Source of the DNA: Nonlabens xiamenensis
GTDB lineage: Bacteria > Bacteroidota > Bacteroidia > Flavobacteriales > Flavobacteriaceae
Assembly: GCF_003865345.1 (NCBI RefSeq)
Contig: NZ_RMVE01000004.1
Span: 372,001-436,000, forward strand
DNA length: 64,000 bases
Direction of reading: 5' to 3'
Below, piece after piece: positions 8,285 to 63,366 of the stretch. The stretch's first letter is position 1, and each line of letters opens with the position of its first letter. The notes beneath the pieces were generated by a model. It ran no database searches, was not told the DNA's origin, and saw only the letters and a program-made list of their open reading frames with translations. The position numbers and the translations under genes are program-made.

Positions 8285-8913
8285 GGGATATTAAGGTATT
8301 TATGCGTTTGCAGAGAGACTTGCCAGTTTGGATTGTCCATCACAAACGCTGTAATCAAGGGAATCATTTTTTCCCTGACGGACCACTCGGGCTGGAGATA
8401 TAGTTTGCAGTCAGCCGATACTTTTTCTGATTCCGCTTTCGCGAAAGCGAAGTCATGCTTATTGTAAACTATCACTTTAAGCTCATGAGCAGCTTCATAG
8501 GCCTCATCCAAGGGCATTTTTGCTTTTTTGGGAGATAGACAAATCCAATCCCAAGAACCCGTTAACGGATAGGCGCCACTGGTTTCTATATGCACGTCCA
8601 GACCCTTTTCCTTAAGACCAGCGGTCAACGGCTCCATGTTCCAGGTCAAGGGCTCTCCTCCCGTTACCACAATGGTATTGCTATATTTTGCAGCATTTGC
8701 CACAATCTGATCCACTGCAGTGGGCGGGTGTTTCTCTGGCGCCCAACTCTCTTTCACATCACACCAATGACAACCTACATCGCATCCACCAACCCGGATA
8801 AAATACGCGGCTCGACCCGTATGGTAGCCTTCTCCCTGAATGGTATAGAATTCTTCCATCAGAGGCAACATGGTTCCTTTCTCTACTTCCTGCTGTACCG
8901 TTTTTTCTAGCAT
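8281..8913 (-). CDS. queE: 7-carboxy-7-deazaguanine synthase (radical SAM)
   Basis: Converts 6-carboxytetrahydropterin to 7-carboxy-7-deazaguanine on the path to preQ0 and queuosine. With the ATG at 8913 it has 210 residues: N-terminal substrate part FYTIQGEGYHTGRAA (22-36), the radical-SAM cluster C44-x3-C48-x2-C51, GGEP (85-88) and the end of the family near LQTHKYLNIP. An upstream start at 8952 is possible, but a TATCTTTG box (8918-8925) ends 4 nt before 8913 and favours this start. The chromosomal palindrome GCTTTCGCGAAAGC lies inside the gene and encodes AFAKA (156-160), near the less conserved C-terminal half. Its pathway partner queD is at 44.4 kb. Confidence 0.93.
   Translation of the reverse strand: MLEKTVQQEVEKGTMLPLMEEFYTIQGEGYHTGRAAYFIRVGGCDVGCHWCDVKESWAPEKHPPTAVDQIVANAAKYSNTIVVTGGEPLTWNMEPLTAGLKEKGLDVHIETSGAYPLTGSWDWICLSPKKAKMPLDEAYEAAHELKVIVYNKHDFAFAKAESEKVSADCKLYLQPEWSVREKMIPLITAFVMDNPNWQVSLQTHKYLNIP
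8435..8448. repeat. GCTTTCGCGAAAGC palindrome, copy 1
   Basis: Perfect copy inside queE; the palindrome extends to 16 bp (8434-8449). Read as AFAKA in the gene. Confidence 0.9.
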
Positions 8914-8917
8914 GCGA

Positions 8918-8925
8918 CAAAGATA
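8918..8925 (-). promoter_or_regulatory. Candidate queE -7 box, leaderless
   Basis: TATCTTTG on the minus strand ends 4 nt before the queE ATG at 8913, so the mRNA would begin at or next to the start codon. The nearest TTG (8950-8952) is 24 bp further upstream, slightly long for a -33 element. Confidence 0.45.
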
Positions 8926-9153
8926 AGCCAGTAGTTCTACACTGACCGCCAAGTTACTTCAAAATATAGCTGGCTGCTTTCTGCTGTAGTTCATCCAGTA
9001 TATGTAACATCTTCCTCATACGGTGCTCATGGATTTCTCCAGGATATAAAACCTTTATAATTTTGAAACAATCTCACTCATCAGGACTTGGTCTTTGAGG
9101 TTAACGAATCAAAATCATCCTATTAACGTATTTTTACGTGTAAATTAAAGTTG

Positions 9154-10668
9154 ATGTCTAAGCAAGAAAGTTTTTTTAAACATATTACTGAATCTTATCA
9201 ACCCAAAGGGAGGTCGATTACCATGGGTGCTGCGATGATTGACGGTCAGGCCTTAACTGGAGCCCACGTCAAAATTCCATTAAAAACAATGAACCGCCAT
9301 GGCCTTATCGCTGGCGCGACTGGAACCGGAAAGACCAAAACCTTACAAATTATCGCCGAGCAGTTATCCCAACAGGGGGTTCCAACTCTACTTATGGATA
9401 TCAAAGGTGATCTTTCTGGGATCGCTGCCGAGAGTCCGGGACACGTTAAGATAGATGAAAGGCATGAGAAGATAGGTCTTGAATTTAAGAAGAGAAAATC
9501 ACCTGTAGAGATCATGACCATTTCAGAGCAGGATGGTATCAGGTTACGAGCTACGGTGAGCGAATTTGGCCCGGTGCTGCTTTCGAGGATTCTAGACGTC
9601 ACCGAAACCCAAGCGGGTATTATCTCGGTTATTTTCAAATATTGCGACGACAACAAATTACCTCTACTGGATCTGGAGGACCTAAAAAAGGTACTTCACT
9701 ATGCCACTGGAGTCGGCAAAGCAGAATTTCAAGAGGCTTACGGGCGAATCTCTACCTCATCTACTGGAGCTATATTAAGACGCATCATTGAACTAGAACA
9801 ACAAGGAGCAGACTTGTTTTTTGGAGAGCGCAGTTTTGAAGTACAAGATTTGTTGCGTAAAAACAAAGATGGACACGGCTATGTCAATATCATTAGACTG
9901 ACAGACATCCAGGACAGACCAAAGCTATTTTCTACCTTTATGCTGAGTCTACTCGCCGAAATTTATAGCACTTTTCCTGAACAAGGTGATAGTGAGCAAC
10001 CTGAATTAGTGCTATTTATCGATGAAGCGCATCTCATTTTTGACAATGCGAGTCGTGCGTTGCTGGATCAAATAGAAAGCATTGTTAAACTTATCCGCTC
10101 CAAAGGTGTGGGCCTCTATTTTGTAACCCAGAATCCGACAGATATTCCAGACGGTGTCCTGGGACAGTTGGGATTGAAGGTGCAACACGCATTGCGTGCT
10201 TTTACTGCCAAGGATAGAAAAGCCATCAAATTGACCGCACAAAATTATCCCTTGACGGATTACTACGATACAGCCGAAGTGTTGACTTCATTAGGTATTG
10301 GAGAAGCCTTGATCAGTGCATTGGATGAAAAGGGAAGACCAAGCCCACTAGCGGCCACATTATTGCGCGCACCAGAAAGTAGAATGGACGTGCTAACAGA
10401 TCGGGAATTGGGAGACCTGATTGCCGATTCACCCCTGACTGACAAATACAATGAAGTCATTGATCGGGAAAGTGCAGAGGAATTACTCCAGGTAAAGATA
10501 GAAAAAGCCAACGAAGCTGAAATTAAAGCCAAAGCGAAAAAAGAAAGAGCCAAAGCAAGCCCTTCCAGGTCCAGAAGCCGTTCAAAAGAGAGTCCGTTGA
10601 TCAAGGTATTGACAAGCGCCACTTTTATTAGAGGCGTTATGGGCATTTTAGGCAAGGCATTGCGCTAA
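9154..10668 (+). CDS. HerA-like DUF853 helicase/ATPase
   Basis: 504-residue P-loop ATPase of the HerA/FtsK superfamily, DUF853 (YjgR-like) branch; thought to act on DNA but without a proven cellular role. Visible: Walker A GATGTGKT (54-61), a second conserved block LLMDIKGDLSGIA (79-91), Walker B LVLFIDEAHLIF (285-296), and a sensor-like stretch VGLYFVTQNPTDIP. The C-terminus is a lysine/alanine-rich helix followed by a basic serine/arginine segment (SPSRSRSRSKE). A TTG three bases upstream also opens the frame, but the ATG at 9154 is the natural start. It stands alone, divergent from queE. Confidence 0.88.
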   Translation: MSKQESFFKHITESYQPKGRSITMGAAMIDGQALTGAHVKIPLKTMNRHGLIAGATGTGKTKTLQIIAEQLSQQGVPTLLMDIKGDLSGIAAESPGHVKIDERHEKIGLEFKKRKSPVEIMTISEQDGIRLRATVSEFGPVLLSRILDVTETQAGIISVIFKYCDDNKLPLLDLEDLKKVLHYATGVGKAEFQEAYGRISTSSTGAILRRIIELEQQGADLFFGERSFEVQDLLRKNKDGHGYVNIIRLTDIQDRPKLFSTFMLSLLAEIYSTFPEQGDSEQPELVLFIDEAHLIFDNASRALLDQIESIVKLIRSKGVGLYFVTQNPTDIPDGVLGQLGLKVQHALRAFTAKDRKAIKLTAQNYPLTDYYDTAEVLTSLGIGEALISALDEKGRPSPLAATLLRAPESRMDVLTDRELGDLIADSPLTDKYNEVIDRESAEELLQVKIEKANEAEIKAKAKKERAKASPSRSRSRSKESPLIKVLTSATFIRGVMGILGKALR

Positions 10669-10763
10669 GAATCGTTAATTAAAAATTAACAATATCAAAA
10701 AAAACTATTGATTTCTCGTGTAGTTAAGAGAAGCCTCGTAATTTTACCCTTTAAACCCGATAC

Positions 10764-11312
10764 ATGAAAAAAGTATTTTTAATCACCTTCGCCATTGTAC
10801 TCTTTGCCAGTTGTGCCGACGAACAGAATCCGTTTGAGTGGAGCAAGGACCGCGTAGGACACTTGACCAAAGGAACCCAAGTCTATCAGCTGGACAGTTT
10901 ATATCAAAATGATAGTATAGTAAGAGCAATCAAAGGTGACGAGTTCAGCAATGGCGCCAATGCTATTGAGGTCTATGAAAAAGGAGGTGCTCATTTGTTG
11001 ACGCTGACTCCCAGTGAAGCCTTGGATAGTACGGCAGTAATAGAAAATATCATCATTCGTGACGACAGATTTATCACAGAAAAAGGAATTACCAAAAACA
11101 GTAGTTTTAAAGAAATCGATGAAGCCTACAAGATCTCAAGTGTAGACAATATGATTGATGATGCGGTAATTTGGGTGAATGACCAGAACTTTTACTTTAC
11201 TATTTCAAAAGAAGGTCTACCTACAGACGTCAAATTTGACATCAGTGCCAACATCGAAAAAACCATGATTCCAGACGACACCAAACCACAATACATGTTT
11301 GTGGCCTGGTAA
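10764..11312 (+). CDS. Hypothetical lipoprotein
   Basis: 182 residues with a lipoprotein signal (MKKVFLITFAIVLFASC; the cysteine is residue 17), so it is probably anchored in the outer membrane facing the periplasm or the surface. The mature part is soluble, acidic and beta-rich, with no motif I recognise. It ends 11 nt before the alpha/beta hydrolase gene on the same strand, and the two are likely co-transcribed. Confidence 0.8.
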   Translation: MKKVFLITFAIVLFASCADEQNPFEWSKDRVGHLTKGTQVYQLDSLYQNDSIVRAIKGDEFSNGANAIEVYEKGGAHLLTLTPSEALDSTAVIENIIIRDDRFITEKGITKNSSFKEIDEAYKISSVDNMIDDAVIWVNDQNFYFTISKEGLPTDVKFDISANIEKTMIPDDTKPQYMFVAW

Positions 11313-11322
11313 ATAAGAAAGG

Positions 11323-12180
11323 ATGAAGAGATTTATACAAAAAGCCATACCTAAGTTGTATGGCTTTTATTTTAACCTATTGCAACTGTTTTCTTCTCAA
11401 AAGGCTGCAGCATTGGCCCTAAGAGTATTCAGTATCCCACGCAGTGGCTTTCTCAAAGAGGATCAGCAGGCTTATTTGGATAAGGCCAGAAAACAACAAA
11501 TAGGCTATGAGGATGGTTTGATTATGTTGTACCATTGGAAAGGAGATGGCCCAACCGTTTTATTGAACCACGGATGGGAATCCAATTCTTGGAGATGGAA
11601 GTACCTGATCGAACCGCTCAAAGCAGAAGGATACAATATTGTCTCCATTGATGCTCCTGCGCACGGAAATAGTTCTGGGAAGCTATTTACTGCGGTCAAA
11701 TATTCCAAAGTCATCCGCACAGTAATGGAGTTGTACGAGCCCAGTATAGTCATAGCCCATAGTGTAGGCGCAATGGCAACAATTTATCAAGAATCACAGC
11801 ATCCTCACCCATTTCTGCGTCGTTTGGTGTTGCTGGGAAGCCCCAACAAACTCGAAGTGATCATGAAAGGCTATCAGAACATAGTTGGGTTCAATAAATC
11901 TGTCTATAGTAGCCTCAATCAACACCTGAACCAGCAGTTTGGCTTTCAAATCAAAGAATTCAATACCGCCGATTTTGCAAAAAAGGTAAATGTTCCTACA
12001 TTACTGATCCATCACACCGAAGATGCCATTGTAGGTTATGAAGCCATGCAAGAAATTGCAAGTCAAATGCCTAATGCCACCACCTACACCTCTTCCACCG
12101 GTGGTCACAGCTTGCACACGCAAGAAGTAATTGACCAAGTCATGGAATTCTTAAGGAAATCAGATTTGCCAAATAATTAA
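11323..12180 (+). CDS. Alpha/beta hydrolase
   Basis: 285-residue serine hydrolase fold, cytoplasmic or peripheral (no signal peptide, but the N-terminal 30 residues are amphipathic). Visible: oxyanion loop LLNHGWESNSWRW, nucleophile elbow AHSVGA (a relaxed G-x-S-x-G), the acid in LIHHTEDAIVG and the catalytic histidine in TGGHSLHT. The substrate is unknown. It lies 11 nt downstream of the lipoprotein gene and probably forms an operon with it. Confidence 0.87.
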   Translation: MKRFIQKAIPKLYGFYFNLLQLFSSQKAAALALRVFSIPRSGFLKEDQQAYLDKARKQQIGYEDGLIMLYHWKGDGPTVLLNHGWESNSWRWKYLIEPLKAEGYNIVSIDAPAHGNSSGKLFTAVKYSKVIRTVMELYEPSIVIAHSVGAMATIYQESQHPHPFLRRLVLLGSPNKLEVIMKGYQNIVGFNKSVYSSLNQHLNQQFGFQIKEFNTADFAKKVNVPTLLIHHTEDAIVGYEAMQEIASQMPNATTYTSSTGGHSLHTQEVIDQVMEFLRKSDLPNN

Positions 12181-12222
12181 CGGCATCAATAGAAGGCTTT
12201 TCATACTTTTAAATAAAAAGTA

Positions 12223-12462
12223 ATGGAACGACCGAGTATCAAAAACGAAGATCAATACGAGGCTTTAAGGGATCAAGGTTACAGTAAAGAGAAAGCTGCT
12301 AGAATCGCCAACACCCCAAACGCAGGCAAAAAGGGCGGGCAAGCAGAGCAGTATGAAAAACGCACCAAGGAAGAACTCTACGACAAAGCAAAAGAAGTAG
12401 ATATTGAAGGGCGTTCGACTATGAGCAAAGACGAATTAATTGAAGCCTTAAGAAACAACTGA
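12223..12462 (+). CDS. Small DUF7218/Rho_N-like protein
   Basis: 79 residues, very hydrophilic. The N-terminal half (YEALRDQGYSKEKAARIAN, then KKGG) resembles small Bacteroidota stress-type proteins. The C-terminal half (RTKEELYDKAKEVDIEGRST then MSKDELIEALRN) is the helix-extended-loop-helix of Rho-N/SAP-like nucleic-acid-binding modules. Binding to DNA or RNA is therefore plausible but not shown. It ends 2 nt before the GTG start of the permease gene. Confidence 0.8.
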   Translation: MERPSIKNEDQYEALRDQGYSKEKAARIANTPNAGKKGGQAEQYEKRTKEELYDKAKEVDIEGRSTMSKDELIEALRNN

Positions 12463-12464
12463 TC

Positions 12465-13487
12465 GTGAGCCGACAAATACCAGCCTCCATTATCCGACAA
12501 TTTTTTATTCTGCTTTTTTTGCTAGGATTATTATTCCTGATCTCTAGGGAAATGATGACCTATCTAGGCGGAGTGTTGGGTGCAGTGACCCTTTATGTCT
12601 TATTGGAACGCTTCCAGGTGTGGCTGGAAGACAGAAAATGGAAACCCGCTCTTGCTGCAAGCCTGTTGATATTTTTATCTTTTGTAATTATCCTCCTGCC
12701 TATTGCAGGTATAGGTATGATGCTTACCTCCAAAGTAAAGACGGCTATTAAAAATTCAGAGCAAATCACTGAAGCTGTCAAATCACAATTGGACAGTCTG
12801 GAAGAATTTATTGGCTTCAATTTGTCCGAAAGCATAAGTTCTTCTGAAGTGAGTACTTGGGTGTCTGACAATATTCAAAATCTGGCCAGTTCAGGAGTTA
12901 ATGTCATTATATCCGTAGGTATTATGTTTTTCCTGTTATACTTTATGTTGGTAGAACGAGATACTTGGAAAAAGGCAGCGATGACATATATGCCACTAAA
13001 AAAGAAAAACCTGGAAACCATTGCTGATGAAAGTGTAGACTTGGTAAAATCTAATGCGATTGGTATTCCACTGGTTGCCTTGCTTCAAGGTGTTGTAGCA
13101 TTGATTGGGTACTTTATATTTGGAATTGACAATCCATTTTTTTGGTTTGTAATCACAGTAATTGGCAGCATGATCCCTTTTGTGGGAACCGCTTTGGGAA
13201 TATTACCCGTCTGTATCCTGATGTATTCACAAGGTAATACTGGGGGAGCTATAGGCATGTTAATTTATGGAGCAGTGGTCGTAGGCTCGACCGATAATCT
13301 TTTTAGATTGGTGGTGCAAAAACGACTGGCTGACGTACATCCGCTGGTTACCCTGATCGGAGTCGTTGTAGGTGTTCCACTATTTGGGTTCATCGGACTG
13401 ATATTTGGCCCTCTACTGGTAAGTTTATTTTTATTACTGGTGAAAATTTATAAGAATGAATACGGAAAAGAAGGAGAAGGGATTTAA
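12465..13487 (+). CDS. AI-2E family transporter (UPF0118 permease)
   Basis: 340-residue polytopic inner-membrane protein of the AI-2 exporter-like / UPF0118 family; members export diverse substrates and the name does not prove AI-2 transport. About eight hydrophobic segments: three at the N-terminus, a soluble domain (about residues 80-140), then a C-terminal block with the family signature FWFVITVIGSMIPFVGTALG and VHPLVTLIGVVVGVPLFGF. The start is a GTG at 12465, only 2 nt after the small upstream gene, which suggests translational coupling. Confidence 0.9.
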   Translation: MSRQIPASIIRQFFILLFLLGLLFLISREMMTYLGGVLGAVTLYVLLERFQVWLEDRKWKPALAASLLIFLSFVIILLPIAGIGMMLTSKVKTAIKNSEQITEAVKSQLDSLEEFIGFNLSESISSSEVSTWVSDNIQNLASSGVNVIISVGIMFFLLYFMLVERDTWKKAAMTYMPLKKKNLETIADESVDLVKSNAIGIPLVALLQGVVALIGYFIFGIDNPFFWFVITVIGSMIPFVGTALGILPVCILMYSQGNTGGAIGMLIYGAVVVGSTDNLFRLVVQKRLADVHPLVTLIGVVVGVPLFGFIGLIFGPLLVSLFLLLVKIYKNEYGKEGEGI

Positions 13488-13545
13488 GCAATAGCCTGAC
13501 TTCAATTTTACGATAATGCGTATTTTTAACACAAACAAAATTTGA

Positions 13546-14088
13546 ATGAGTAAAGTAGCAAAACTTCAAGATAAGATAGATGAAAAGTTTATAGAACAGC
13601 GCAAGCTATTCATTTGGGGAATGGTCGATGACAAAACCGCCAAGCACTGTGTGGATCGATTGCTGTACCTGGATGCCCTGAGTGACGAGGAAATCACCTT
13701 TGTGATCAACAGCCCTGGAGGTTATGTGACCGCAGGTTTTTCTATATATGATACGATGCAATCCCTGAACAGCCCAGTAAGTACAGTATGTAGTGGTCTG
13801 GCTGCTTCCATGGGTTCCATTTTATTATCTGGTGGTGCAAAAGGACGCCGTTTTATCCAACAACACGGGCGAGTGATGATTCATCAGCCTAGTGGTGGTG
13901 CAAGAGGTACCAGTGTTGATATAGAAATTACCGCACAGGAAATCATGAAGACCAAAGAATTAAGCGCCCAACTGTTGGCCGAGAATTGTGGGCAGGACTT
14001 TGATAAAGTCATGAAAGATTTCAATCGCGATTACTGGATGGGTGCCGATGAAGCTGTGGACTACGGCATCGTAGACGGTATTCTCTAA
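13546..14088 (+). CDS. clpP: ClpP-like serine protease subunit
   Basis: 180-residue ClpP family peptidase, which would form the barrel-shaped proteolytic core fed by a Clp/Hsp100 ATPase. The catalytic triad is intact: S88 in GLAASMGS, H113 in MIHQP and D158 in MKDFNRD. The substrate-strand motif FVINSPGGYV (52-61) is also present. It is slightly short at the N-terminus, with no propeptide, and no clpX is adjacent, unlike the usual clpP-clpX layout. It is therefore probably a second ClpP paralogue; the canonical copy would be elsewhere. Confidence 0.88.
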   Translation: MSKVAKLQDKIDEKFIEQRKLFIWGMVDDKTAKHCVDRLLYLDALSDEEITFVINSPGGYVTAGFSIYDTMQSLNSPVSTVCSGLAASMGSILLSGGAKGRRFIQQHGRVMIHQPSGGARGTSVDIEITAQEIMKTKELSAQLLAENCGQDFDKVMKDFNRDYWMGADEAVDYGIVDGIL

Positions 14089-14249
14089 GGAAAACAAAAA
14101 AAGTTGGCACAGCCTCCAAAACAACTGAAGCTCAGAAAGCTGTTCAGATACTATTTCAGGATATTACGATTGTGCTTTTGGCATTGGTAGTGTGTGGCGG
14201 TTTACAAGGTATTAATAGCGAGTAGTAACTTCAATAATTTGCATTGAGG

Positions 14250-14336
14250 ATGAATAACCTTTCTCAATGGATGATTTGGATAATGGTTCCTCCTATGCTG
14301 ACTTATAAAGTATTAACAATAATAAAGTTCATATGA
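14250..14336 (+). CDS. Possible 28-residue hydrophobic micro-ORF
   Basis: A short frame from the ATG at 14250 encodes MNNLSQWMIWIMVPPML followed by YKVLTIIKFI, a single hydrophobic helix. Its stop overlaps the ATG of the VOC gene (ATGA-type coupling). Nothing else supports translation, so it may be chance. Confidence 0.2.
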   Translation: MNNLSQWMIWIMVPPMLTYKVLTIIKFI

Positions 14337-14749
14337 AGCTTACCCCTTTCCACCTGGCGATTCCGGTAAAGGAAATCACTACCACCCGAGCATTCTACAG
14401 AGATACGCTAGGTTGCGTAGAGGGCAGAAGTTCGGATCACTGGGTTGACTTTGATTTTTTTGGTCACCAACTGGTTATTCATATCAGCGAGGAACGGCAG
14501 AAGGAGGCAGTGAATCCAGTAGATGGAAAAGCCGTCCCAGTGCCACATTTTGGTGTGGTATTGGAATGGGAAGTTTTCCACGCTTTCGCGAAAGCGATCA
14601 AAGAAAAGGGAATCGAATTTATCATTGAACCATATACCAGATTCGAAGGTCAACCTGGCGAACAAGCCACTATGTTTTTTAAGGACCCCAGCGGAAATGC
14701 CTTAGAATTCAAATCATTCAAAGATTTTAATCAAATATTTGCCACATGA
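14333..14749 (+). CDS. VOC family (glyoxalase-like) protein
   Basis: 138-residue protein of the vicinal-oxygen-chelate fold, made of two beta-alpha-beta-beta-beta modules. Visible: FHLAIPV at the start with metal-ligand-type H7, the middle metal site near PHFGVVLEW, and the closing FFKDPSGNALEFKSF, where the glutamate of ALEF is the usual last ligand. Substrate unknown. The palindrome (14582-14595) encodes AFAKA inside a helix of the second module. It overlaps the next gene by 4 bp (ATGA), so the two are translated together. Confidence 0.9.
   Translation: MKLTPFHLAIPVKEITTTRAFYRDTLGCVEGRSSDHWVDFDFFGHQLVIHISEERQKEAVNPVDGKAVPVPHFGVVLEWEVFHAFAKAIKEKGIEFIIEPYTRFEGQPGEQATMFFKDPSGNALEFKSFKDFNQIFAT
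14582..14595. repeat. GCTTTCGCGAAAGC palindrome, copy 2
   Basis: Perfect copy (16 bp palindrome 14581-14596) inside the VOC gene, read as AFAKA. Confidence 0.9.
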
Positions 14750-15165
14750 AACTATTTAATCGATTAAAAAATTTACCTGACGAGGAATATACCTTACAGG
14801 AAATTGAAGCTACTTCTATCTCAGACGTGGATGAGGCCATTGAACAAGAAGAGTCTATCACCCACAAGATTGCCAACAGTGGTTTTCTGAAGAAGTATGC
14901 CAAAATGGGGCAGATCATGTTTATGATGATCAAGGATTATAGAAAAGGGATTTACACCAAAATACCCTGGTTTACCATTGCTGCCATTACAACAGGTTTG
15001 TTATATGTATTTAGTCCAATCGACTTAATACCTGACTTTATTCCAGGCTTGGGATTCATTGACGACCTCACCGTTCTTTCCTTTATTACAGGATGGATAG
15101 AAACAGATTTACACAGTTATCTAGACTGGAAGCTTAAACAAAAAGCCTACTTAGAAGCATCATAA
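14746..15165 (+). CDS. YkvA/DUF1232 family membrane protein
   Basis: 139 residues. The diagnostic DUF1232 stretch is present: a hydrophobic segment (WFTIAAITTGLLYVFSP) running into IDLIPDFIPGLGFIDDLTVL. The family is small, membrane-associated and of unknown function. It overlaps the VOC gene by 4 bp, and its 3' end overlaps the convergent amidohydrolase gene by 19 bp. Confidence 0.9.
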   Translation: MKLFNRLKNLPDEEYTLQEIEATSISDVDEAIEQEESITHKIANSGFLKKYAKMGQIMFMMIKDYRKGIYTKIPWFTIAAITTGLLYVFSPIDLIPDFIPGLGFIDDLTVLSFITGWIETDLHSYLDWKLKQKAYLEAS

Positions 15166-16784
15166 ACCTTTTGACCATTGATGTAGGTTTGCTCTACCGT
15201 GAGCTTTGGAATTTCATCAAGATCTACCTGCATGATATCTTTTTTCATCAGAATAAAATCTGCTGCTTTTCCTGGTTCAAGGCTTCCTTTTTCCTGTTCT
15301 TCAAAATTGGCATAAGCAGCCCAAATGGTCATGCCTTGTAATGCCTCTTTTCTAGTTAACGCCTGTTCTGGGAGAAACCCTTCTTCAGGAAAGCCAGAGG
15401 TGTCCTTTCTACCAACCGCAGCATAAAAGGTTAAAAATGGACTCACTTGTTCTACCGGATAATCAGTACCGAGGGCAAGCCTACCAGATTCATCAAGCAA
15501 TTTTTTATAAGCATAAGCACCTTTGATACGCTGGCTACCCACCCTATCTTCTGCCCAATACATATCGCTAGTCGCATGCGTTGGTTGTACAGAAGGAAGA
15601 ACATTGTCGTGATCAAAAAAATGGAAGTCCGCCGGATCAACTATTTGAGCATGTTCCACCCTCCAGCGTCTATCTGTTGAACCAGATAGCAATTTCTTGT
15701 AAGTTTTTAATACTACATAATTGGCACTATCACCGATGGCATGGGTATTCATTTGATAATCGGTTTGAGCGATACGCTGCGCTGTATTTTCAAATTCCTC
15801 CACACTGCTCAACAACGCACCAAAATGATTATGCTGATCTGAGTAGGGTTCTTTCATAGCTGCACCGCGACTTCCCAGCGCACCATCAGCATAGAATTTA
15901 ACCGATCTTACATGTAAACGATCAGTTTTAATAATTCCTTTGGAGAGAAAATAGTCCAGATTTTCTGGCGTATTACTCACCATGGCATAGATTTTAATAC
16001 GAAGATCGCCAGCCTGCTGTAGGCTATCAATCAATTCGATCGTCGCCTGATGCAGCCCAGCGTCATCCACTGTTGTCAACCCATAAGAAAGGTTGATTTG
16101 TTGGGCATCAAGCAAAGCCGTAATATCCTCTTGCCTCCCTGCACTGGGAAAAACAGCTTCAACTAGCTCCATTGGGTTATCGACAAGTATACCGGTTAGT
16201 TTTCCATCCTTACGCACGATATCTCCACCCTCTATTTTAGTATCTACATTGATTCCCGCCAGATCCAAAGCCGCTTGATTGGCAATCATAGCGTGACCAT
16301 CAATTCGTGTTAGCGCTACAGGTGTATCGGGGAACATCTCATTCAGTCTGGCATTGGTGGGAAATTCTTTTACCGACCAATCATTTTGATCCCATCCGCG
16401 GCCAATGATGAAATCAGGTTGGCGCTCCTCATTAAATTGCTGCACGCGATCCAGAACTTCTTGATAGCTTTGGGTCCCCACTAAGTCTACTCGTTGCAGC
16501 TGTTGACCCAATCCATAAAAATGGCAGTGAGCGTCAATAAAACCAGGATATATGTATTGTCCTTGCGCATCGATTATATCTTTGGATTCAAAATCTGCTA
16601 GCATATCTATGGAAGAGCCGAGCGCAACGACTTTGCCATCACGTATGGCCAAGGCCTCCGCTTGGGAAAATGCTTCATCCACAGTATATATATTAGCATT
16701 AGTGACAATTAAGTCGACCTTTTCTTGAACAGGTTGACAGGCAGTAAGTCCGAGAATACAGAATAAGAACAGTAGTTTTTTCAT
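15147..16784 (-). CDS. YtcJ-like amidohydrolase, lipoprotein
   Basis: 545-residue metal-dependent amidohydrolase of the YtcJ/N-substituted formamide deformylase-like family. I chose the ATG at 16784 because it opens a lipoprotein signal (MKKLLFLFCILGLTAC, cysteine 16), which the upstream start at 16832 would bury. Visible: metal-binding GFIDAHCHFYG (H86, H88), GRGWDQNDW, MNTHAIGDSAN, RVEHAQIV and LGTDYPVE in the canonical order, with the small beta-sandwich formed by both termini (ADFILMKKD at the end). It presumably acts in the periplasm or at the surface; the substrate is unknown. Convergent with the YkvA gene, overlapping by 19 bp. Confidence 0.9.
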   Translation of the reverse strand: MKKLLFLFCILGLTACQPVQEKVDLIVTNANIYTVDEAFSQAEALAIRDGKVVALGSSIDMLADFESKDIIDAQGQYIYPGFIDAHCHFYGLGQQLQRVDLVGTQSYQEVLDRVQQFNEERQPDFIIGRGWDQNDWSVKEFPTNARLNEMFPDTPVALTRIDGHAMIANQAALDLAGINVDTKIEGGDIVRKDGKLTGILVDNPMELVEAVFPSAGRQEDITALLDAQQINLSYGLTTVDDAGLHQATIELIDSLQQAGDLRIKIYAMVSNTPENLDYFLSKGIIKTDRLHVRSVKFYADGALGSRGAAMKEPYSDQHNHFGALLSSVEEFENTAQRIAQTDYQMNTHAIGDSANYVVLKTYKKLLSGSTDRRWRVEHAQIVDPADFHFFDHDNVLPSVQPTHATSDMYWAEDRVGSQRIKGAYAYKKLLDESGRLALGTDYPVEQVSPFLTFYAAVGRKDTSGFPEEGFLPEQALTRKEALQGMTIWAAYANFEEQEKGSLEPGKAADFILMKKDIMQVDLDEIPKLTVEQTYINGQKVYDASK

Positions 16785-17097
16785 TAGGTTAAAAATAAGG
16801 TGAACTGGGCATTCTAAAAAGCTTTTGTTCATAGACCGTTCACTTGCCTGGTCATTGACTTTGGTTCAGTGTACATTGGATATATAATCTTGGCATATTT
16901 ATGAAAACCCCTATCTAAATTCATGAATCCAGTGTCAATCAATCCTTTATAACTATGCCAATTGCCTTTTCCCTATTAGTTTTGGACAAACAAAAAGTTT
17001 GATCCCCATGAATTTTGAATAGCCATGGAATTTAAAAATGATCGGGTATCTACTTTAAGTTATTTCAATTTTAATCATTCGCTAAAACCATTTCAAC
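16785..17097. other. Intergenic region before the small Cys-rich gene
   Basis: 313 bp between divergent genes. It is AT-rich; the only ATG frames are 15 codons or fewer. No exact TAnnTTTG box was found for either flank. Confidence 0.4.
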
Positions 17098-17373
17098 ATG
17101 AAAACTTTAATCATTTCATTATTCGTACTCTCTGCAAGTATTTCATTCAAGGCCCAGCCTGTAGAATCACCTCTATCTGAAGGACAGCGATGCTGCACAG
17201 ATAAACAACAGTGCGACGAAAACCGAACAACGTCTAATCGTGTATGCGTCACGTTTTCAGACCATACGGATCGACTGGCAGCGTCAAGAGCTGAATTTTC
17301 TGCCTGTCTCAGTGCTCGGGCCATGAGTGTTGGTGCCTGTGGATCAAGCGCCTCGATTACGGTAAGTAAATGA
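17098..17373 (+). CDS. Small secreted six-cysteine protein
   Basis: 91 residues with a clear Sec signal peptide (MKTLIISLFVLSASISFKAQ) and a mature part of about 71 residues holding six cysteines (C32, C33, C39, C50, C70, C81). The end is rich in small residues (FSACLSARAMSVGACGSSAS). An even cysteine number in an exported protein suggests three disulphides or a modified peptide. I do not recognise the family. It is the first gene of a same-strand group with a GLPGLI protein and a TonB-receptor-like protein and could be their cargo; that link is inference from position only. Confidence 0.6.
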   Translation: MKTLIISLFVLSASISFKAQPVESPLSEGQRCCTDKQQCDENRTTSNRVCVTFSDHTDRLAASRAEFSACLSARAMSVGACGSSASITVSK

Positions 17374-17388
17374 TCGGGAATTAAAAGT

Positions 17389-17514
17389 TGTGGTAGAATA
17401 ATCTTTGAATAGAATGAGATAGCTATTGATGTTGGGAACTAAACGAATTGCTTTCTTTTTAAGGATTTCATCGATATTCTAGAAGATCACTTTTTGAAGA
17501 TTTTTTCTACCACA
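17389..17514. repeat. Long-range inverted repeat (possible MITE-like or RNA structure)
   Basis: TGTGGTAGAA at 17389-17398 and its exact complement TTCTACCACA at 17505-17514; the match extends inward to about 17 bp with one gap and one mismatch (AATCTT arms). The pair brackets about 106 bp of AT-rich sequence between the six-Cys gene and the GLPGLI gene. No clear target-site duplication was seen. Confidence 0.55.
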
Positions 17515-17539
17515 CATTAAATTAAAAATCTATTGAAAT

Positions 17540-18301
17540 ATGAAAATTTTACTTCCTCTCAGTTTGCTATGTTTTGCTCTCATACAACACGATCAGCCGC
17601 AAACAGAGATTCATCAGGTTGAATATCTATTTTATATCAACGATCCTGATCCCAATTGGGGCCTACATGATTCCTACATGACTAAGGTAGTGACTGATGG
17701 GAGTCTGTCGAATAGTTTATCGAAAGATGTAGATACAATCATACCCCTTTCCGATGGTTCTATCCTAGAAACTATGAATCCTTATTTCGTAAAAGACTAT
17801 CACTTGAAATCAATCTATAGCAGCACTGAAGATGAATTTGTATTGAATATGGGATCTATTTCGCGACCAATTTACATTTCAGATCAGGTACGTTTGGATT
17901 TCACATTAGGTACGGCCAAGAAAACCATATTGGGATATACTTGTGACCAGTACTATCTGAATTATGAGGGGCGTCAATATGAGGTGTATATCACGGATCA
18001 ACTTACTTATCCTATTGGTCCCTACAAATTTATTTCCCCAATAGGGGCAGTGCTTGAAGTACGGAGTTTTGATAATGCAGTGAGTATTGTCGCAAAGTCC
18101 CATACAATTTTGGAACAATATGAGTTACAAAGCTCGTTTGCCGAAAAGCCTAGCATGGATTTTCAATCCTTTGTGGCTCTTTACATGAAGCATTACACTG
18201 ATCTTAAGACCAAACTTGAGTCCGAATTTGAAAACTCTGAAAACTTCTTTACCAGCCGTAAAATCGAAATATATCCTAATAAATATGATAAACGCCAATA
18301 A
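17540..18301 (+). CDS. GLPGLI family secreted protein
   Basis: 253 residues with a short signal peptide (MKILLPLSLLCFALIQH). The family pattern is seen in the middle: KKTILGYTCDQYYLNYEGR, a YEVYITDQL stretch standing in for the usual W-Y-T motif, then GPYKF (160-164) and SPIGAVLEV (166-174), a divergent version of the naming motif GLPGLILEI. GLPGLI proteins are exported Bacteroidota proteins of unknown function, often seen near TonB-receptor-like barrels; one follows at 18.9 kb. The 3' end overlaps the next gene by 17 bp. Confidence 0.78.
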   Translation: MKILLPLSLLCFALIQHDQPQTEIHQVEYLFYINDPDPNWGLHDSYMTKVVTDGSLSNSLSKDVDTIIPLSDGSILETMNPYFVKDYHLKSIYSSTEDEFVLNMGSISRPIYISDQVRLDFTLGTAKKTILGYTCDQYYLNYEGRQYEVYITDQLTYPIGPYKFISPIGAVLEVRSFDNAVSIVAKSHTILEQYELQSSFAEKPSMDFQSFVALYMKHYTDLKTKLESEFENSENFFTSRKIEIYPNKYDKRQ

Positions 18302-18737
18302 CATACTTTGCTTGATTTTTATCTTTGGCTGCTCTCTGGCCACTGCACAAGAATCAACAAATCATCAGCAAATCATCGATGACACTTACCAAGAGCTTCT
18401 GGACAGTAAAAGAAGTTTTAGATTGTTATGTGTTTCCGATCAGGAAGATCTTACCACCGGACTTTTTATCGGCTTGAATAGGGATGGAAAAATAGGTGTT
18501 TCCTTCAGGGAATATAGTATGTCTAAAAATAAGTTTGCCAGCCTGCCCAATTTGTTTAAAGACTATGATCCCTATAAAGAAATAGACATCATGCATCATG
18601 GTGATCCTCCTAAAAGAACAGAGCTACTTTCCTATCGCATCAATTTTGTGTTATCTAAAGAAATACTCGCAGATGTTTTGAATAGATATTTTGACCTAAA
18701 ATCCGCTGACAGAAAACTTTATCTAATGTTCCCATGA
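18285..18737 (+). CDS. Hypothetical secreted protein
   Basis: 150 residues from the ATG at 18285, chosen because it opens a signal peptide (MINANNILCLIFIFGCSLATAQ); the longer frame from 18216 would place this inside the protein. The mature part is soluble with mixed charge and no known motif. It overlaps the GLPGLI gene by 17 bp in another frame, which implies translational coupling and a shared role. It could also be a lipoprotein (IFGC). Confidence 0.7.
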   Translation: MINANNILCLIFIFGCSLATAQESTNHQQIIDDTYQELLDSKRSFRLLCVSDQEDLTTGLFIGLNRDGKIGVSFREYSMSKNKFASLPNLFKDYDPYKEIDIMHHGDPPKRTELLSYRINFVLSKEILADVLNRYFDLKSADRKLYLMFP

Positions 18738-18940
18738 GCATGGTTGGTAGATTGTCATAAAGCATTCGTACATCAATGAGTCAACAATAAATCTCTACTA
18801 ATGCAAAATAAACCTAGAAGTCTGATTTTAAGGAATATCAACTGAATTGAGATGGTGAGTCTTATCCTTTCCTATGACCAGAAGCTTTAAGTTGGGTATT
18901 GTTTAATTAAAAGCTACCTGTTCCAACCAACTATCAACTT

Positions 18941-30147: not shown

Positions 30148-30163
30148 CTGCTTATCTTTACCC

Positions 30164-30171: not shown

Positions 30172-30177
30172 CCTTTT

Positions 30178-39600: not shown

Positions 39601-39674
39601 AAAAGAATTTCTAGCATTGCAAGATACGGGACAGGATCACTATCTTGCTAGGTCTAAGCCATCTTTTGATATGC

Positions 39675-56837: not shown

Positions 56838-56851
56838 GCTTTCGCGAAAGC
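56838..56851. repeat. GCTTTCGCGAAAGC palindrome, copy 7
   Basis: Perfect 14-bp copy, the only perfect one outside a gene; it lies 31 bp upstream of the beta-glucosidase ATG. In RNA it would be a stable hairpin. Confidence 0.9.
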
Positions 56852-56882
56852 GTGACCGCCAACATCATTGCGCACTAGCACC

Positions 56883-59195
56883 ATGAAAAAAACACCTATT
56901 AGTTTATTGCCTGTACTGGTATTGACCATTCTTTGGTCTTGTGCAGGAAATCGATCCAATTCCATGAACACAACCGCCACCGCAACCAATACCGACCCCA
57001 TCGACAAAAAAGTTGACTCACTGCTTGCACTGATGACTTTAGAGGAAAAGGTAGGCCAAATGAATCAATACAATGGTTTTTTTGATGCTACTGGTCCAAC
57101 TCCTCAAGAAGGAAATAGTAAAACTAAATACGAACACATCCAAAAAGGCTGGGTGGGTTCTATGTTAAATGTAAGAGGTGTTGATGAAGTTAGGGCGGTT
57201 CAGAAAATAGCGGTAGAGCAAAGTCGTTTGGGTATACCCTTGATCTTTGGTTCAGATATCATTCATGGCTATAAAACTCTAGCGCCCATTCCTTTGGCAG
57301 AAAGTGCCAGCTGGGACCTGGAAGCCATTGAAAAATCAGCTCGTAATGCGGCTATCGAGGCCAGCGCTACAGGACTGAATTGGACGTTTGCCCCTAACGT
57401 CGATATCTCAAGAGATGCGAGATGGGGACGTGTCATGGAGGGAGCTGGTGAAGATCCATACTACGGTAGCCTAGTGGCTGCTGCTAGAGTCAGAGGTTTT
57501 CAAGGAGATGACCTTAGCGCCCACAATACAATCCTGGCTTGTGCAAAACATTTTGCTGGATATGGGTTTTCTGAAGCTGGAAGAGATTACAATACGGTTG
57601 ACATCAACAGATCCACCTTGCATAATGTCGTACTACCACCTTTTAAAGCTGCGGTAGATGCCAATGTAAAAACCTTAATGAATTCCTTTAATGAATTGGA
57701 TGGCATTCCCGCCACGGCCAACTCCTATCTACAAAGAGAGCTATTAAAAGAAAAATGGGGATTTGACGGCTTTGTAGTCTCAGATTGGGGTTCGATTGGA
57801 GAAATAGCTATCTGGGGTGCCGCCGAAAATTTGAGGGAAGCCGCTAAAAAGGCTGCTATCGCCGGGTCTGATATGGATATGGAATCTTATGCTTATGTGG
57901 AGCATCTCGTAGCCTTGGTAAAAGATGGAGAAGTGCCTGAATCAGTCATCGATGAAGCCGCGGGAAGAATACTGAAAGCCAAGTTTGAACTAGGCCTTTT
58001 TGACGACCCTTACAAATATTGTGATGAAACAAGAGAAATCACACTGATTGGAAGCGAACAGCAAAACCAAGACGCCTTAGACATCGCTAAAAAATCCATC
58101 GTACTTCTCAAAAATCAAAACAACTTACTTCCACTTAAAAAATCTGGACAGGACGTATTGGTGATCGGTGACCTTGCTGATGATAAAAACAGCCCGTTAG
58201 GAAGCTGGCGCATTGGATCTGATAATGAGACCGCAGTGTCCATATTGGAAGGTATGAAACAGTATGATGCCAATATTTCTTACCAACAAGGTGTGCGCTT
58301 GACTGATGCCAACGCAGAGTTTACCCTGGAGGTTCAAGTCAATGAAACTGATCCTAGCGGAATTGACGCTGCCGTTCAGGCCGCCAAAGGAAAGGATGTC
58401 GTTGTCATGGTACTGGGCGAACACGGATTTCAAAGTGGAGAAGGAAGAAGTAGAACCGACCTGGACCTTCCGGGACTTCAACAGGAATTATTGGAAGCGG
58501 TTTATGCCGTCAATAAGAATATTGTCCTGGTATTGAACAATGGTAGACCGCTTGCTATCAGCTGGGCGGATGAGAATATTCCTGCGATCGTAGAAGCCTG
58601 GCACCTGGGAACACAAGCGGGAAATGCGGTAGCCGCCGTACTTTATGGCGATCATAATCCAGGTGGAAAACTTACCCTTTCCTTTCCTCGTAATATTGGA
58701 CAAGTTCCTATCTATTACAATTATAAAATGACGGGACGTCCGACCAATTTACCCGGAGCGCCGGATGACCTGGTATTTTGGTCTCATTACAGTGATGTGG
58801 AAAATACCCCCTTGTATCCCTTTGGCTACGGACTGAGTTATACCACATTTGACTATGATCAGTTGAGCTTAAGCAACCAAGAAATTGGAATGAACGATAA
58901 AATCGAGATACAGGTGAGATTGACCAACACTGGCGAGGTTGCAGGGACGGAAGTCGCTCAATTATACATCAGGGATAAAGTGGCCAGCATAACGAGACCT
59001 GTTCGCGAGCTCAAAGGGTTCAAGAAGGTAAGTTTAGCGCCTGGTGAATCAACGATCATTACCTTTGAGTTAGATCAATCTACCTTGGGCTATTATAATA
59101 ATGACGGAGAATATATGGTCGAGCCAGGAACTTTTGAGATTTTTGTAGGTGGTGATTCTTATGCAGACCTCACCAGCTCCTTCCGTTTGAAATAA
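56883..59195 (+). CDS. bglX: GH3 beta-glucosidase (BglX-like) lipoprotein
   Basis: 770 residues from the ATG at 56883, which opens a lipoprotein signal ending LWSC (C20). Glycoside hydrolase family 3 with all domains: TIM barrel with substrate motifs GSDIIHGY, CAKHFAGYG (KHF 222-224) and GRDYNTVDI, nucleophile D301 in GFVVSDWGSI; alpha/beta sandwich with GEHGFQSGEGRSRTDLDLPG, where the acid/base glutamate lies; C-terminal fibronectin-III-like domain (NTGEVAGTEVAQLYI to the end). It removes terminal beta-linked glucose from oligosaccharides in the periplasm or at the surface, fitting the SusCD locus. Confidence 0.95.
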   Translation: MKKTPISLLPVLVLTILWSCAGNRSNSMNTTATATNTDPIDKKVDSLLALMTLEEKVGQMNQYNGFFDATGPTPQEGNSKTKYEHIQKGWVGSMLNVRGVDEVRAVQKIAVEQSRLGIPLIFGSDIIHGYKTLAPIPLAESASWDLEAIEKSARNAAIEASATGLNWTFAPNVDISRDARWGRVMEGAGEDPYYGSLVAAARVRGFQGDDLSAHNTILACAKHFAGYGFSEAGRDYNTVDINRSTLHNVVLPPFKAAVDANVKTLMNSFNELDGIPATANSYLQRELLKEKWGFDGFVVSDWGSIGEIAIWGAAENLREAAKKAAIAGSDMDMESYAYVEHLVALVKDGEVPESVIDEAAGRILKAKFELGLFDDPYKYCDETREITLIGSEQQNQDALDIAKKSIVLLKNQNNLLPLKKSGQDVLVIGDLADDKNSPLGSWRIGSDNETAVSILEGMKQYDANISYQQGVRLTDANAEFTLEVQVNETDPSGIDAAVQAAKGKDVVVMVLGEHGFQSGEGRSRTDLDLPGLQQELLEAVYAVNKNIVLVLNNGRPLAISWADENIPAIVEAWHLGTQAGNAVAAVLYGDHNPGGKLTLSFPRNIGQVPIYYNYKMTGRPTNLPGAPDDLVFWSHYSDVENTPLYPFGYGLSYTTFDYDQLSLSNQEIGMNDKIEIQVRLTNTGEVAGTEVAQLYIRDKVASITRPVRELKGFKKVSLAPGESTIITFELDQSTLGYYNNDGEYMVEPGTFEIFVGGDSYADLTSSFRLK

Positions 59196-60947: not shown

Positions 60948-60956
60948 GGTTTGGTT

Positions 60957-61973
60957 TTATTGAGGTAAGGTTGTACCGCGCAAGTCGATGGAAAAATCAA
61001 CGGTTGCCGTGGTGGTATCTCTTTTATCCTTGTCTTCTAAGCGTTCTACCAACATCCTCACCGATTGCTGGCCAATCTGCTCAGCATGCTGAGTGACGGT
61101 AGATAATTGAGGATAGGACATATGTGAAATATCATCTGAGGAAAAGCCTAGAATGGACAAATCCTGAGGAACTTTTTTACCCATTCGCTGAGCGACATTT
61201 GTCGCAATGATTCCAGATATATTATCAATACATAATAGACCATCTACATCCTTGTGCTGGGCAAAAAGACCTTCCAACTGATCGTTGAGCAGCGCATCAT
61301 TGTCATCCATGTTGACCACATGCACTTCCCCTTTATAATCTGGTGAATTTTCAATAGCTTTTTTATACCCCAATACCCGGAGTTTTCCAACACTTAGATT
61401 GCCCAATCGATTGAGCAACATGATTTTTTTTCGTCCTTCTTTGATCAGTACCTCAGCACCTTTGAAGGCAGCGTTGAAGTCATCGATGATCACTTTATCG
61501 CATTCTACTTCATTAGAGACCCGATCAAACATCACGATGGGCACCTCCTGCCCAATGGTGTCTTTTAAATGATTTACTTCGCCTTTGACCTGTGTCTCCT
61601 CGGCAATCGACATGATAAACCCATCCACACTACCATTGGCCAACAAATTAAGGCTGTCATTCTCCTTGTCGTAAGACTCATTGGATAAACAAGTAATGAT
61701 ATTATATCCCAATCTGTTGGATTCCTGCTCAATACCGTAAAGGATACGGGCAAAGAAACCGTTGAGAATATCCGGTATGATCACGCCTATTGTTTTTGTC
61801 TTCCGGTTTTTAAGACTTAATGCTAGGGTGTTGGGCCGGTAATTTAATTCTTTGGCGATTTCCTTAACACGGGCAATGGTCTCTTTACTAATTTCTGGGC
61901 TGTCTTTTAAAGCCTTTGAAACAGTAGATACTGAAACGCCAAGCGTAGCTGCTAAATCCTTAAGGGTGATCAT
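60957..61973 (-). CDS. LacI family transcriptional regulator
   Basis: 338 residues: N-terminal helix-turn-helix with hinge (ITLKDLAATLGVSVSTVSKA, then LNYRPNTLALSL) and a periplasmic-binding-protein-like sensor (TIGVIIPDILNGFFARIL, DGLLCIDNISGIIA, SILGFSSDDISHMSYPQLSTV). It likely represses the surrounding gluconate/sugar genes and is released by a sugar or sugar acid. It lies between gntP (gap 19 nt) and the GPH symporter gene (gap 9 nt) on the same strand, so it is probably autoregulated. Confidence 0.95.
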   Translation of the reverse strand: MITLKDLAATLGVSVSTVSKALKDSPEISKETIARVKEIAKELNYRPNTLALSLKNRKTKTIGVIIPDILNGFFARILYGIEQESNRLGYNIITCLSNESYDKENDSLNLLANGSVDGFIMSIAEETQVKGEVNHLKDTIGQEVPIVMFDRVSNEVECDKVIIDDFNAAFKGAEVLIKEGRKKIMLLNRLGNLSVGKLRVLGYKKAIENSPDYKGEVHVVNMDDNDALLNDQLEGLFAQHKDVDGLLCIDNISGIIATNVAQRMGKKVPQDLSILGFSSDDISHMSYPQLSTVTQHAEQIGQQSVRMLVERLEDKDKRDTTTATVDFSIDLRGTTLPQ

Positions 61974-61992
61974 GTGGTAAAATTTTTATTAC

Positions 61993-63366
61993 TTATAAAA
62001 ATAGGCTTAACAAGCACACACTTGCAAATCCAGAAATAGATAGCAATGTAGTCATTACTGACCAGCTTTTGAGTGTCTGGGCTTCATTTAAGCCTAAATA
62101 CTTACCCACCAGCCAGAATCCGCTATCATTGACATGGGAAAAAATTGAAGCTCCAGAGGCGATTGCAATGACCAGTAGGGCAAGCTCTGGAGCAGAGACT
62201 TGAAGTGTATCTAAACTTCCGCCCGAATCTGGATATAGCACTGAAGCCAGAATACCTGCAGCGGTAATCATCGCGACTGTAGCACTACCTTGCAAAAGCC
62301 TTACTATTACCGCCGTCGCATACCCAAGCAGAAGCATCCCCCAATCCGCTTTCGCGAAAGCGTCTGCCATCATCACTCCAGCTCCAGTATCTATCAACAC
62401 CTGTTTAAACACTCCACCTGCACCTGTGAGCAAAATAATTATTCCAGCCTTTTCCATGGAGAAGGTCGAGATGTCCATGAGTTTTTTCAATTCCACCTTC
62501 CTCTGGATACCCAAAAAATACCAAGCCAGCAGGTTAGCCAGGATCAATGCGGTAAATGGATGGCCTACAAATTTGATCCAACTGATCAATTCATTTCTAT
62601 CTCCTGATGAATCCACAAAAACATAAGTCGATAAAGTGTTCATTACGATCAGTAGGATAGGAAAACCTATGATGGCCAATATCAGTCCTACCGACGGCTG
62701 GTTTTCCCTGACCTTTGAAGCGGTCTCGGTAAATCCGGGAGCTTTGATATCAAGTCTCGAACCGATATACTTCCCAAAAAGCGGCCCACATACAATGGCG
62801 GTTGGAACTCCTACGGCAAAACCAAAAACGATCACCCACCCCAAATCGGCCTTTAAAATATCGGCTACAGCTACTGGCCCAGGTGTAGGTGGTATAAAAC
62901 TATGGGTAATGGCAAGTCCTGCCAGTAATGGTATGGCATATAGTAATAATGATTTACCAGACTTTCGCTGCAATGAATAAATAACTGGTACCAAAATGAT
63001 AAACGCTACATCAAAGAAAACTGGTATCGCCACTACAAAACCTGTAATCATCACAGCCCAACTGGCTCGTTTTTCTCCAAACAACTTAAGTAAAAATTGG
63101 GCAAGTGCCTCAGCGCCACCTGAATGCTCAAGCATCGCCCCAAACATGGCTCCCAGTCCTACTACCACAGCGACAAAACCCAAAGTACTTGCCATACCTT
63201 GTTGAATAGCAGAAATCAGGTCCATCGGGTGCATTCCTGAAGCGATTCCAACAATGATACTGGAAATCAATAAGGCAATGAATGCCTGCAATTTGCAACG
63301 CAAAATCAAAAAAAGTAGAACAGCGATACCAAGAACTATGGCCAGTAAAAGTGAATAATCAATCAT
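61993..63366 (-). CDS. gntP: GntP family gluconate:H+ symporter
   Basis: 457 residues from the ATG at 63366 (MIDYSLLLAIVLGIAV), which overlaps the gnd stop by 8 bp; the longer frame to 63468 runs back into gnd and is not real. GntP family marks: SGMHPMDLISAIQQGMASTLG, FIPPTPGPVAVADIL, GLLGYATAVIVRLLQGSATVAM-like region and ASIFSHVNDSGFWLVGKYLG. About 12-14 membrane segments. It imports gluconate or a related sugar acid, matching the adjacent gnd. The palindrome (62348-62361) encodes AFAKA in the DAFAKADWG loop. Confidence 0.94.
   Translation of the reverse strand: MIDYSLLLAIVLGIAVLLFLILRCKLQAFIALLISSIIVGIASGMHPMDLISAIQQGMASTLGFVAVVVGLGAMFGAMLEHSGGAEALAQFLLKLFGEKRASWAVMITGFVVAIPVFFDVAFIILVPVIYSLQRKSGKSLLLYAIPLLAGLAITHSFIPPTPGPVAVADILKADLGWVIVFGFAVGVPTAIVCGPLFGKYIGSRLDIKAPGFTETASKVRENQPSVGLILAIIGFPILLIVMNTLSTYVFVDSSGDRNELISWIKFVGHPFTALILANLLAWYFLGIQRKVELKKLMDISTFSMEKAGIIILLTGAGGVFKQVLIDTGAGVMMADAFAKADWGMLLLGYATAVIVRLLQGSATVAMITAAGILASVLYPDSGGSLDTLQVSAPELALLVIAIASGASIFSHVNDSGFWLVGKYLGLNEAQTLKSWSVMTTLLSISGFASVCLLSLFL
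62348..62361. repeat. GCTTTCGCGAAAGC palindrome, copy 8
   Basis: Perfect copy (16 bp palindrome 62347-62362) inside gntP, read as AFAKA in a loop. Confidence 0.9.

Follow-up and report, generated by a model that had tools for sequence, protein, structure and literature searches.

The window analyzed here, a 64,000-nucleotide stretch of the Nonlabens xiamenensis genome (contig NZ_RMVE01000004.1, positions 372,001 to 436,000), carries repeated copies of a 14-bp palindrome, GCTTTCGCGAAAGC, which forms the inner part of a 16-bp palindrome, CGCTTTCGCGAAAGCG, iterated throughout the genome. This genome-wide signal is real, and no earlier description of it was found in the literature searched. The reading that fits best, and that we hold with a confidence just short of even, is that the 16-mer is a self mark resembling an uptake sequence and read by a trans-acting factor.

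Eight perfect copies of the 14-mer occur within the window, every one at the position given in a sequence-only reading made earlier by a model, and the three near-copies reported there proved to be real as well, at 33994, 34926, and 38012. An additional, weaker copy with two mismatches is found at 19195. With up to two mismatches allowed, the window contains 12 matches to the 14-mer, whereas 100 shuffled sequences averaged 0.16 and never gave more than 2. Chance was rejected as an explanation on this count and on the genome-wide controls given below. The proteins encoded in the window are of the Bacteroidota type (SusC/RagA). The copies are located as follows (the motif itself has no strand; strands are those of the genes).

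8435 to 8448: perfect 14-mer in a QueE-like radical SAM gene (8281-8952, minus strand), read as AFAKA; the aligned position is empty in 6 of 6 other-genus genomes compared.
14582 to 14595: perfect 14-mer in a glyoxalase-family gene (14333-14749, plus strand), read as AFAKA.
25875 to 25888: perfect 14-mer in a gene for a TPR-repeat protein (23260-26289, minus strand), read as LSRK; the aligned position is empty in 6 of 6 other-genus genomes compared.
30413 to 30426: perfect 14-mer in a glycosyltransferase-like gene (30133-31332, plus strand), read as RFRES.
33994 to 34007: copy with one mismatch, CCTTTCGCGAAAGC, between the open reading frames at 32582-33922 and 34127-35281.
34926 to 34939: near-copy with one extra T, GCTTTTCGCGAAAGC (neighboring base included), in a family-2 glycosyltransferase gene (34127-35281, minus strand).
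38012 to 38025: variant GCTTTCGCGGAAGC, with one mismatch, in a pterin-binding (folP-like) gene (37717-38565, plus strand).
39750 to 39763: perfect 14-mer in an AlkB-like 2OG-Fe(II) oxygenase gene (39645-40286, plus strand), read as AFAKA.
47418 to 47431: perfect 14-mer in a gene with DUF255 and thioredoxin domains (45493-47604, plus strand), read as LSRK.
56838 to 56851: perfect 14-mer, intergenic, just upstream of a BglX-like beta-glucosidase gene (56868-59195, plus strand).
62348 to 62361: perfect 14-mer in a GntP-family permease gene (61993-63468, minus strand), read as AFAKA.

The palindrome first noted is genuine, but the unit is longer than the 14 bp assigned to it: among 73 14-mers sampled in 464 kb of the window's genome, 65 are preceded by C and 64 are followed by G, and 56 are the full 16-mer. 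The consensus is sharp. In the same 464 kb, 56 sequences match the 16-mer exactly, 21 differ at one position (17 of them at the outermost base), 5 at two, and 7 at three, whereas 10 order-3 Markov simulations gave means of 0, 0, 0.2, and 0.6 at zero to three mismatches, so that the excess survives the correction for composition. None of the 33 copies with one to three mismatches has a compensating change that keeps the palindrome. Once the 14-mers are masked, the shorter words within the motif are close to expectation: TCGCGA was seen 44 times against 39.9 expected, CGCG 507 times against 663, the half-site GCGAAAGC 8 times against 5.7, and TTCGCGAA 7 times against 3.5. Since the masked cores and half-sites lie near expectation and imperfect copies never form new palindromes, the whole palindrome is the unit, and its letters count, not pairing alone. 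The base composition was also seen to switch at the 73 sites, the left side being T/G-rich and C-poor and the right side A/C-rich, roughly in mirror image, over about 15 bp on each side beyond the 16-mer.

The genome of the window's strain (3,684,258 bases) contains 553 copies of the motif, against none for the reversed control, and each of the 22 other genomes of the same genus (g1) that were searched contains 288 to 857. The proposal of a chromosome-wide motif acting at the DNA level is upheld, with counts far from random expectation. Sixteen other genera, represented by one genome each (one from the same family, 15 from the order), gave no copy. In an even sample of 397 genomes of the family, 6 have more than 100 copies, 3 have 16 to 19, and 388 have 0 to 9; the six comprise four g1 genomes and two genomes of other genera, G606 (408 copies) and G622 (857 copies). 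Across 395 genomes of the phylum, the window's genome alone exceeds 6 copies. A scan of named genomes for the 16-mer with four flanking bases returned ten stretches, of which five are from Dokdonia (three of them from one metagenome-assembled genome [MAG]), four from Nonlabens, and one from a MAG labeled Cytophagaceae. By protein comparison, G622 may be a Dokdonia (88.9% over one protein of 513 aa); for the window's own genus, a stretch of 188 aa matches Nonlabens at 86%, while its neighbors reach 45 to 61%. From these counts across genus, order, family, and phylum, the motif is a trait of a few genera. The 14-mer of the motif-rich genomes was not found in the literature searched; its inner 10-mer does appear in print, in 10 papers, one of which deals with short words missing from genomes, the human genome among them.

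The sites fall mostly inside genes. Predicted genes hold 57 of the 73 sampled, with each of the three frames represented (AFAKA 29, FRES 16, LSRK 12), and the other 16 are intergenic. The intergenic share is 16/73 in the window's genome, 7/63 in G606, 43/107 in G622, and 36/83 in G002 (a g1 genome), at coding fractions of 0.89 to 0.91, these shares resting on a home-made gene finder. The motif density ranges from one per 4.3 kb to one per 7.3 kb, and the sites are spread around the chromosome: 1 to 6 occur in each of 23 sampled 20-kb stretches of the complete chromosome of G606, and 0 to 7 in each of 20 such stretches of G002, one of which has none. A regional bias along the chromosome was rejected on the G606 counts, for which the origin and terminus were not mapped.

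The spacing is regular, a point that the sequence-only reading had singled out for checking, and short gaps are rare or absent in the window's genome and in G622. Over 600 kb of contig C5 in the window's genome, 100 sites are separated by 1,594 to 18,454 bp, with a coefficient of variation (CV) of 0.565 against a random mean of 0.986; none of 5,000 simulations was as low, and 0 of 99 gaps are shorter than 1.5 kb, where 21.7 would be expected. G622, examined over 460 kb, likewise has a low CV (0.643; random, 0.988), and 7 of its gaps fall below 1.5 kb, where 31.3 would be expected. A second site close to an existing one is thus rarely retained. One site-free gap of 12.9 kb (C5:62000-72600, locus L053) contains genes resembling, by eye, a type I restriction system, an insertion sequence (IS) transposase, and an integrase, and it is probably recent DNA that lacks sites. 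The longest gap (C5:170099-188553) looks like ordinary core genes.

Individual sites can be strongly retained. The one at 39750 has survived in 23 of 23 genomes of the genus, where the local DNA identity is 66 to 79%; in 18 of them it is perfect, and the other 5 share a single A-to-G change, which turns AAA into GAA and K into E. It reads GCT TTC GCG (A/G)AA GCG in all 23, and the GCT, TTC, and both GCG codons are invariant; by comparison, leucine is encoded by four different codons at one nearby position and by five at another. Two flanking codons are invariant too: TAT at -18 and, for the 21 rows with phenylalanine, TTT at -6. The rows of this codon table were picked by site pattern, and a protein match retrieved the same 22 loci and agrees. 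For the folP-like gene, whose locus was fetched in 7 of the 22 other genomes of the genus, the eight sequences compared, including the window, comprise six perfect sites, one A-to-G variant (that of the window), and one with five mismatches. At the 34926 locus, three other genomes were aligned: the 14-mer is perfect in G007 and G014, and in G005 a 24-bp insertion interrupts it. Orthologous sites (window 38012; L121, L122, L125, L126, and L142) repeatedly show the variant GCTTTCGCGGAAGC or its mirror image, which may represent an alternative form of the signal that is tolerated. The sites vary in age, not all being as old as that at 39750.

Between genera, most site positions differ. Counted as distinct sites, the window's genome shares 0 of 6 with G606 (one being matched by a one-mismatch variant) and 0 of 2 with G622, and the other pairs share 0 of 11 (G002 and G606), 1 of 5 (G002 and G622), and 2 of 12 (G606 and G622). 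Three genes of the window checked in G606 and G622 have no site at the aligned position in any of the six comparisons. The mapping of sites between orthologues was gapless in 44 of 45 cases (common sites counted from both sides), which indicates that sites arise by substitution, without change in length. IS or repetitive extragenic palindromic (REP) insertion was rejected on these mappings and on the genic location of 57 of the 73 sites. A terminator was likewise rejected because T prevails in the left flank and A in the right, opposite to the arrangement in an intrinsic terminator. The earlier statement that no IS, terminator, or gene family explains the motif holds.

Another genus, g321 (G566 and G741), has only a few copies, and these look worn. 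In G566, 9 copies are perfect and 20 have one mismatch (reversed control, 0); three of these (C15:33637-37029) have the spacing of the metal island described below. Eight G566 genes were chosen from 20 fetched sites, and seven of them have orthologues in G606 or G622; in three of these seven, the site stands at the same place in both G606 and G622, perfect or one letter off. G741 carries an altered site in several of the genes. The same three positions are empty in the g1 genomes examined, save for a one-mismatch site in one G020 gene (36% identity); this site (L288) and its G566 counterpart (L232) reflect either a very old common site or convergence. The state of the copies in g321 suggests that the force maintaining them has been lost there.

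The motif is also carried by phages. When 2.9 million viral contigs were scanned, the 16-mer turned up in 41 stretches on 30 contigs, of which 18 have at least two sites in the sequence examined, with up to 6 in 27.9 kb. Seven of the remaining 12 contigs have a G+C content above 0.5 and are probably chance matches. Portal, head, terminase, or tape-measure families were detected in three of four viral contigs tested, and only a family of unknown function in the fourth. Among aligned site-bearing phage proteins, down to 41% identity, the site occupies the same codon in every listed pair; the contigs had been found via the motif itself, and the comparison took in site-bearing proteins only. The Nonlabens phages P12024S and P12024L, for which no integrase is annotated, have 0 sites and no copy within two mismatches. 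They are 97.9% identical over 32,050 of 35,700 bases and therefore count as one case. The site-bearing phages would be temperate, and the pattern of resident phages with sites and P12024S/L without rests on motif-ascertained contigs, this presumed life style, and a single site-free case.

In genomes without the genome-wide motif, copies often cluster, with the same distances between them (933 bp; 10,754 bp), in an island whose genes encode AcrB/CusA-type pumps, a heavy-metal P-type ATPase (HMA), and a tyrosine integrase, families that were tested in G167. Related motif-bearing genes were observed in this heavy-metal efflux island at loci L070 to L081 (G167, G631, G504, G513, G617, G749, and G440). 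Here the motif serves as a provenance tag. All 16 copies of G502 lie inside 78 kb of one contig, together with 9 of its 10 one-mismatch copies. Distant genomes supplied 20 single-copy loci, and the flanks of 13 resemble those of no other locus compared; plasmid records gave no near match to positions 1-20000 of the window. The motif was seen to be split exactly between TTTC and GCGAAA by short elements resembling hairpins (20, 24, about 20, and 33 bp; for example, of the CCTGCCTGCCGGCAGGCAGG type), at L135:4612, L149:1919, L194 near 17200, and perhaps L193:12528, and it seems to be a target of such elements. The element occurs elsewhere too, within another near-palindrome (L088) and, by eye, beside tRNA-like sequence (L179).

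We tentatively favor a mark of self that works like an uptake sequence. The palindrome and its sharp consensus point to a factor that would bind the 16-mer as double-stranded DNA, acting in trans and probably as a symmetric, dimeric protein. Fragments bearing the 16-mer would enter the cell or recombine better during natural transformation, and such a bias would let perfect sites spread and persist. The DNA uptake sequences (DUS) of Neisseria and the uptake signal sequences (USS) of Pasteurellaceae offer the closest parallel, with hundreds of exact copies in and between genes, far above expectation. Known uptake sequences are described as highly conserved in one study (PMC2397512) and as relatively evenly distributed, the expected outcome of biased uptake, in another (PMC7811141). 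As in DUS and USS, the sites described here are evenly spaced, strongly conserved, and carried by some phages and not by others, here with few near-copies, and the motif is more conserved than its flanks in the orthologues of the AlkB-like gene (23 genomes) and the folP-like gene (6 perfect of 8). Nearly all of the Pasteurellaceae prophages studied accumulate uptake sequences, with one cluster as an exception, and every phage above 150 kb, likely lytic, is among those poor in USS (PMC6776037). In our own count, phage HP1 has 17 USS cores in 32 kb, against 3 for the reversed control. Riemerella columbina, which the study cited here places in the Flavobacteriaceae, prefers its own DNA in transformation, the candidate marks being left open (PMC7965970); a non-standard flavobacterial uptake system is therefore conceivable.

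Several observations weigh against an uptake-like mark. To our knowledge, uptake sequences are non-palindromic. Of 8 motif-rich genomes tested, 6 lack a T2SSF (PilC/GspF) gene, and its presence in only two means that no pilus-type uptake machine is common to them, so that pilus-type competence shared by these genomes was rejected. In the literature searched, no paper tied Dokdonia to natural competence, and none tied Nonlabens to natural transformation. Site retention is incomplete, 2 of 4 distinct sites being common to sampled orthologues of the window's genome and G002, and sites common to phages at 41 to 56% protein identity are more than would be expected from transformation alone. On contig C4 of G004 (94 listed sites), the spacing is not unusual (CV, 0.915; P, 0.25), although gaps below 1.5 kb are still few (6 against 26 expected); a T2SSF gene of this genome is flanked by two gaps of 20 and 30 kb. 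The density is also below that of about one per kb in Haemophilus influenzae (PMC7811141). ComEC, present in 20 of 20 genomes whether motif-rich or not, does not discriminate, and the genes beside intergenic sites show by eye no obvious candidate for the reader protein. The earlier suggestion of a DNA-uptake-type sequence is the best fit among the options put forward there, but the palindrome and the lack of a common pilus gene do not agree with it. The motif may work like an uptake sequence; it is a flavobacterial 16-bp palindrome of lower density and is not assigned to the known DUS or USS families.

A possibility to be taken seriously, though with the balance leaning against it, is an orientation-free self mark of an undescribed kind. 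A dimeric protein would read the 16-bp palindrome about every 5 kb and either organize the chromosome or license DNA as self, and resident phages and conjugative elements would keep the mark to persist.

The main rival, which we consider rather unlikely, is a site that organizes the chromosome or marks its domains. A nucleoid protein would be bound every few kilobases, each site serving 1 to 2 kb per side, and long site-free stretches, new prophages and islands included, would be selected against. The over-dispersion with loss of redundant neighbors, the even counts in 23 of 23 stretches around the G606 chromosome, and the retention of sites on phages and on the 78-kb island stretch all agree with such a role, which needs no pilus. 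The sites read by Noc, SlmA, and MatP and the parS-type sites are dimer-read palindromes of similar length; the motif differs from them in occurring in hundreds of copies evenly around the chromosome and in having no extra ParB-type gene. Indeed, a single PF17762 match per genome was found in 7 of 7 motif-rich genomes, and an additional ParB/Noc-type reader was rejected. We know of no bacterial protein with about 500 strict 16-bp sites, and the sampled G002 stretch without sites also counts against this role, as do the positions that mostly differ between motif-rich genera, though spacing could still be what matters.

It is improbable that the motif is a protection signal of the Chi type, at which a nuclease acting on broken or incoming DNA would be halted or redirected, thereby marking self. 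Chi occurs about once per 5 kb in Escherichia coli, a density similar to that of the motif. The phages on the viral contigs carry the motif, and P12024S and P12024L, which lack it, have their own annotated ERF and YqaJ-like recombination proteins. However, known Chi sites are short and polar, whereas the motif is a much longer (14 to 16 bp), non-polar, over-dispersed palindrome whose half-sites are barely enriched.

A motif in the style of the cyanobacterial highly iterated palindrome HIP1, kept by a DNA methyltransferase and methyl-directed repair, is very improbable. The motif is palindromic and highly iterated, as are HIP1 and the alternate HIPs, but it spans 16 bp instead of 8, and a methyltransferase site of 14 to 16 bp would be unusual. 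HIP1, described in these terms, has been tied to methyltransferases of its inner GATC and CGATCG (PMC4390886). No inner core of the present motif is enriched outside the 14-mer, so that a methyltransferase core of TCGCGA or CGCG was rejected and the HIP1-style interpretation put forward in the sequence-only reading is unsupported.

A mobile or RNA-level hairpin, that is, a tiny inserted REP-like repeat or a structure acting on mRNA, is largely refuted and hardly credible: the 16-mer can form a 6-bp hairpin, an idealized 26-mer composed to follow the trend of the flanks outperforms 198 of 200 shuffles in folding, and hairpin elements do insert at the motif center, but the 26-mer occurs in none of the fetched sequences, the 16-mer itself folds no better than shuffles (z, -0.94), most sites arose by gapless substitution and lie in genes, unlike REP elements and bacterial interspersed mosaic elements (intergenic hairpins spread by insertion), and the absence of compensating changes together with genic sites in three frames leaves the mRNA hairpin proposed earlier without support.

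Highly iterated motifs have opened the way to central processes, with Chi leading to recombination, uptake sequences to bacterial sex, and KOPS and matS to chromosome segregation. No iterated motif of this sort in flavobacteria was found in the literature searched. Should the palindrome turn out to be an uptake sequence, we know of no earlier palindromic example, and natural transformation could be tested directly in this marine group; should it be a chromosome site, it would add a new type of element to chromosome architecture. With its worn sites, g321 is the natural lineage in which to seek a lost reader. The palindrome behaves like a mark that lets these flavobacteria recognize DNA of their own kind.

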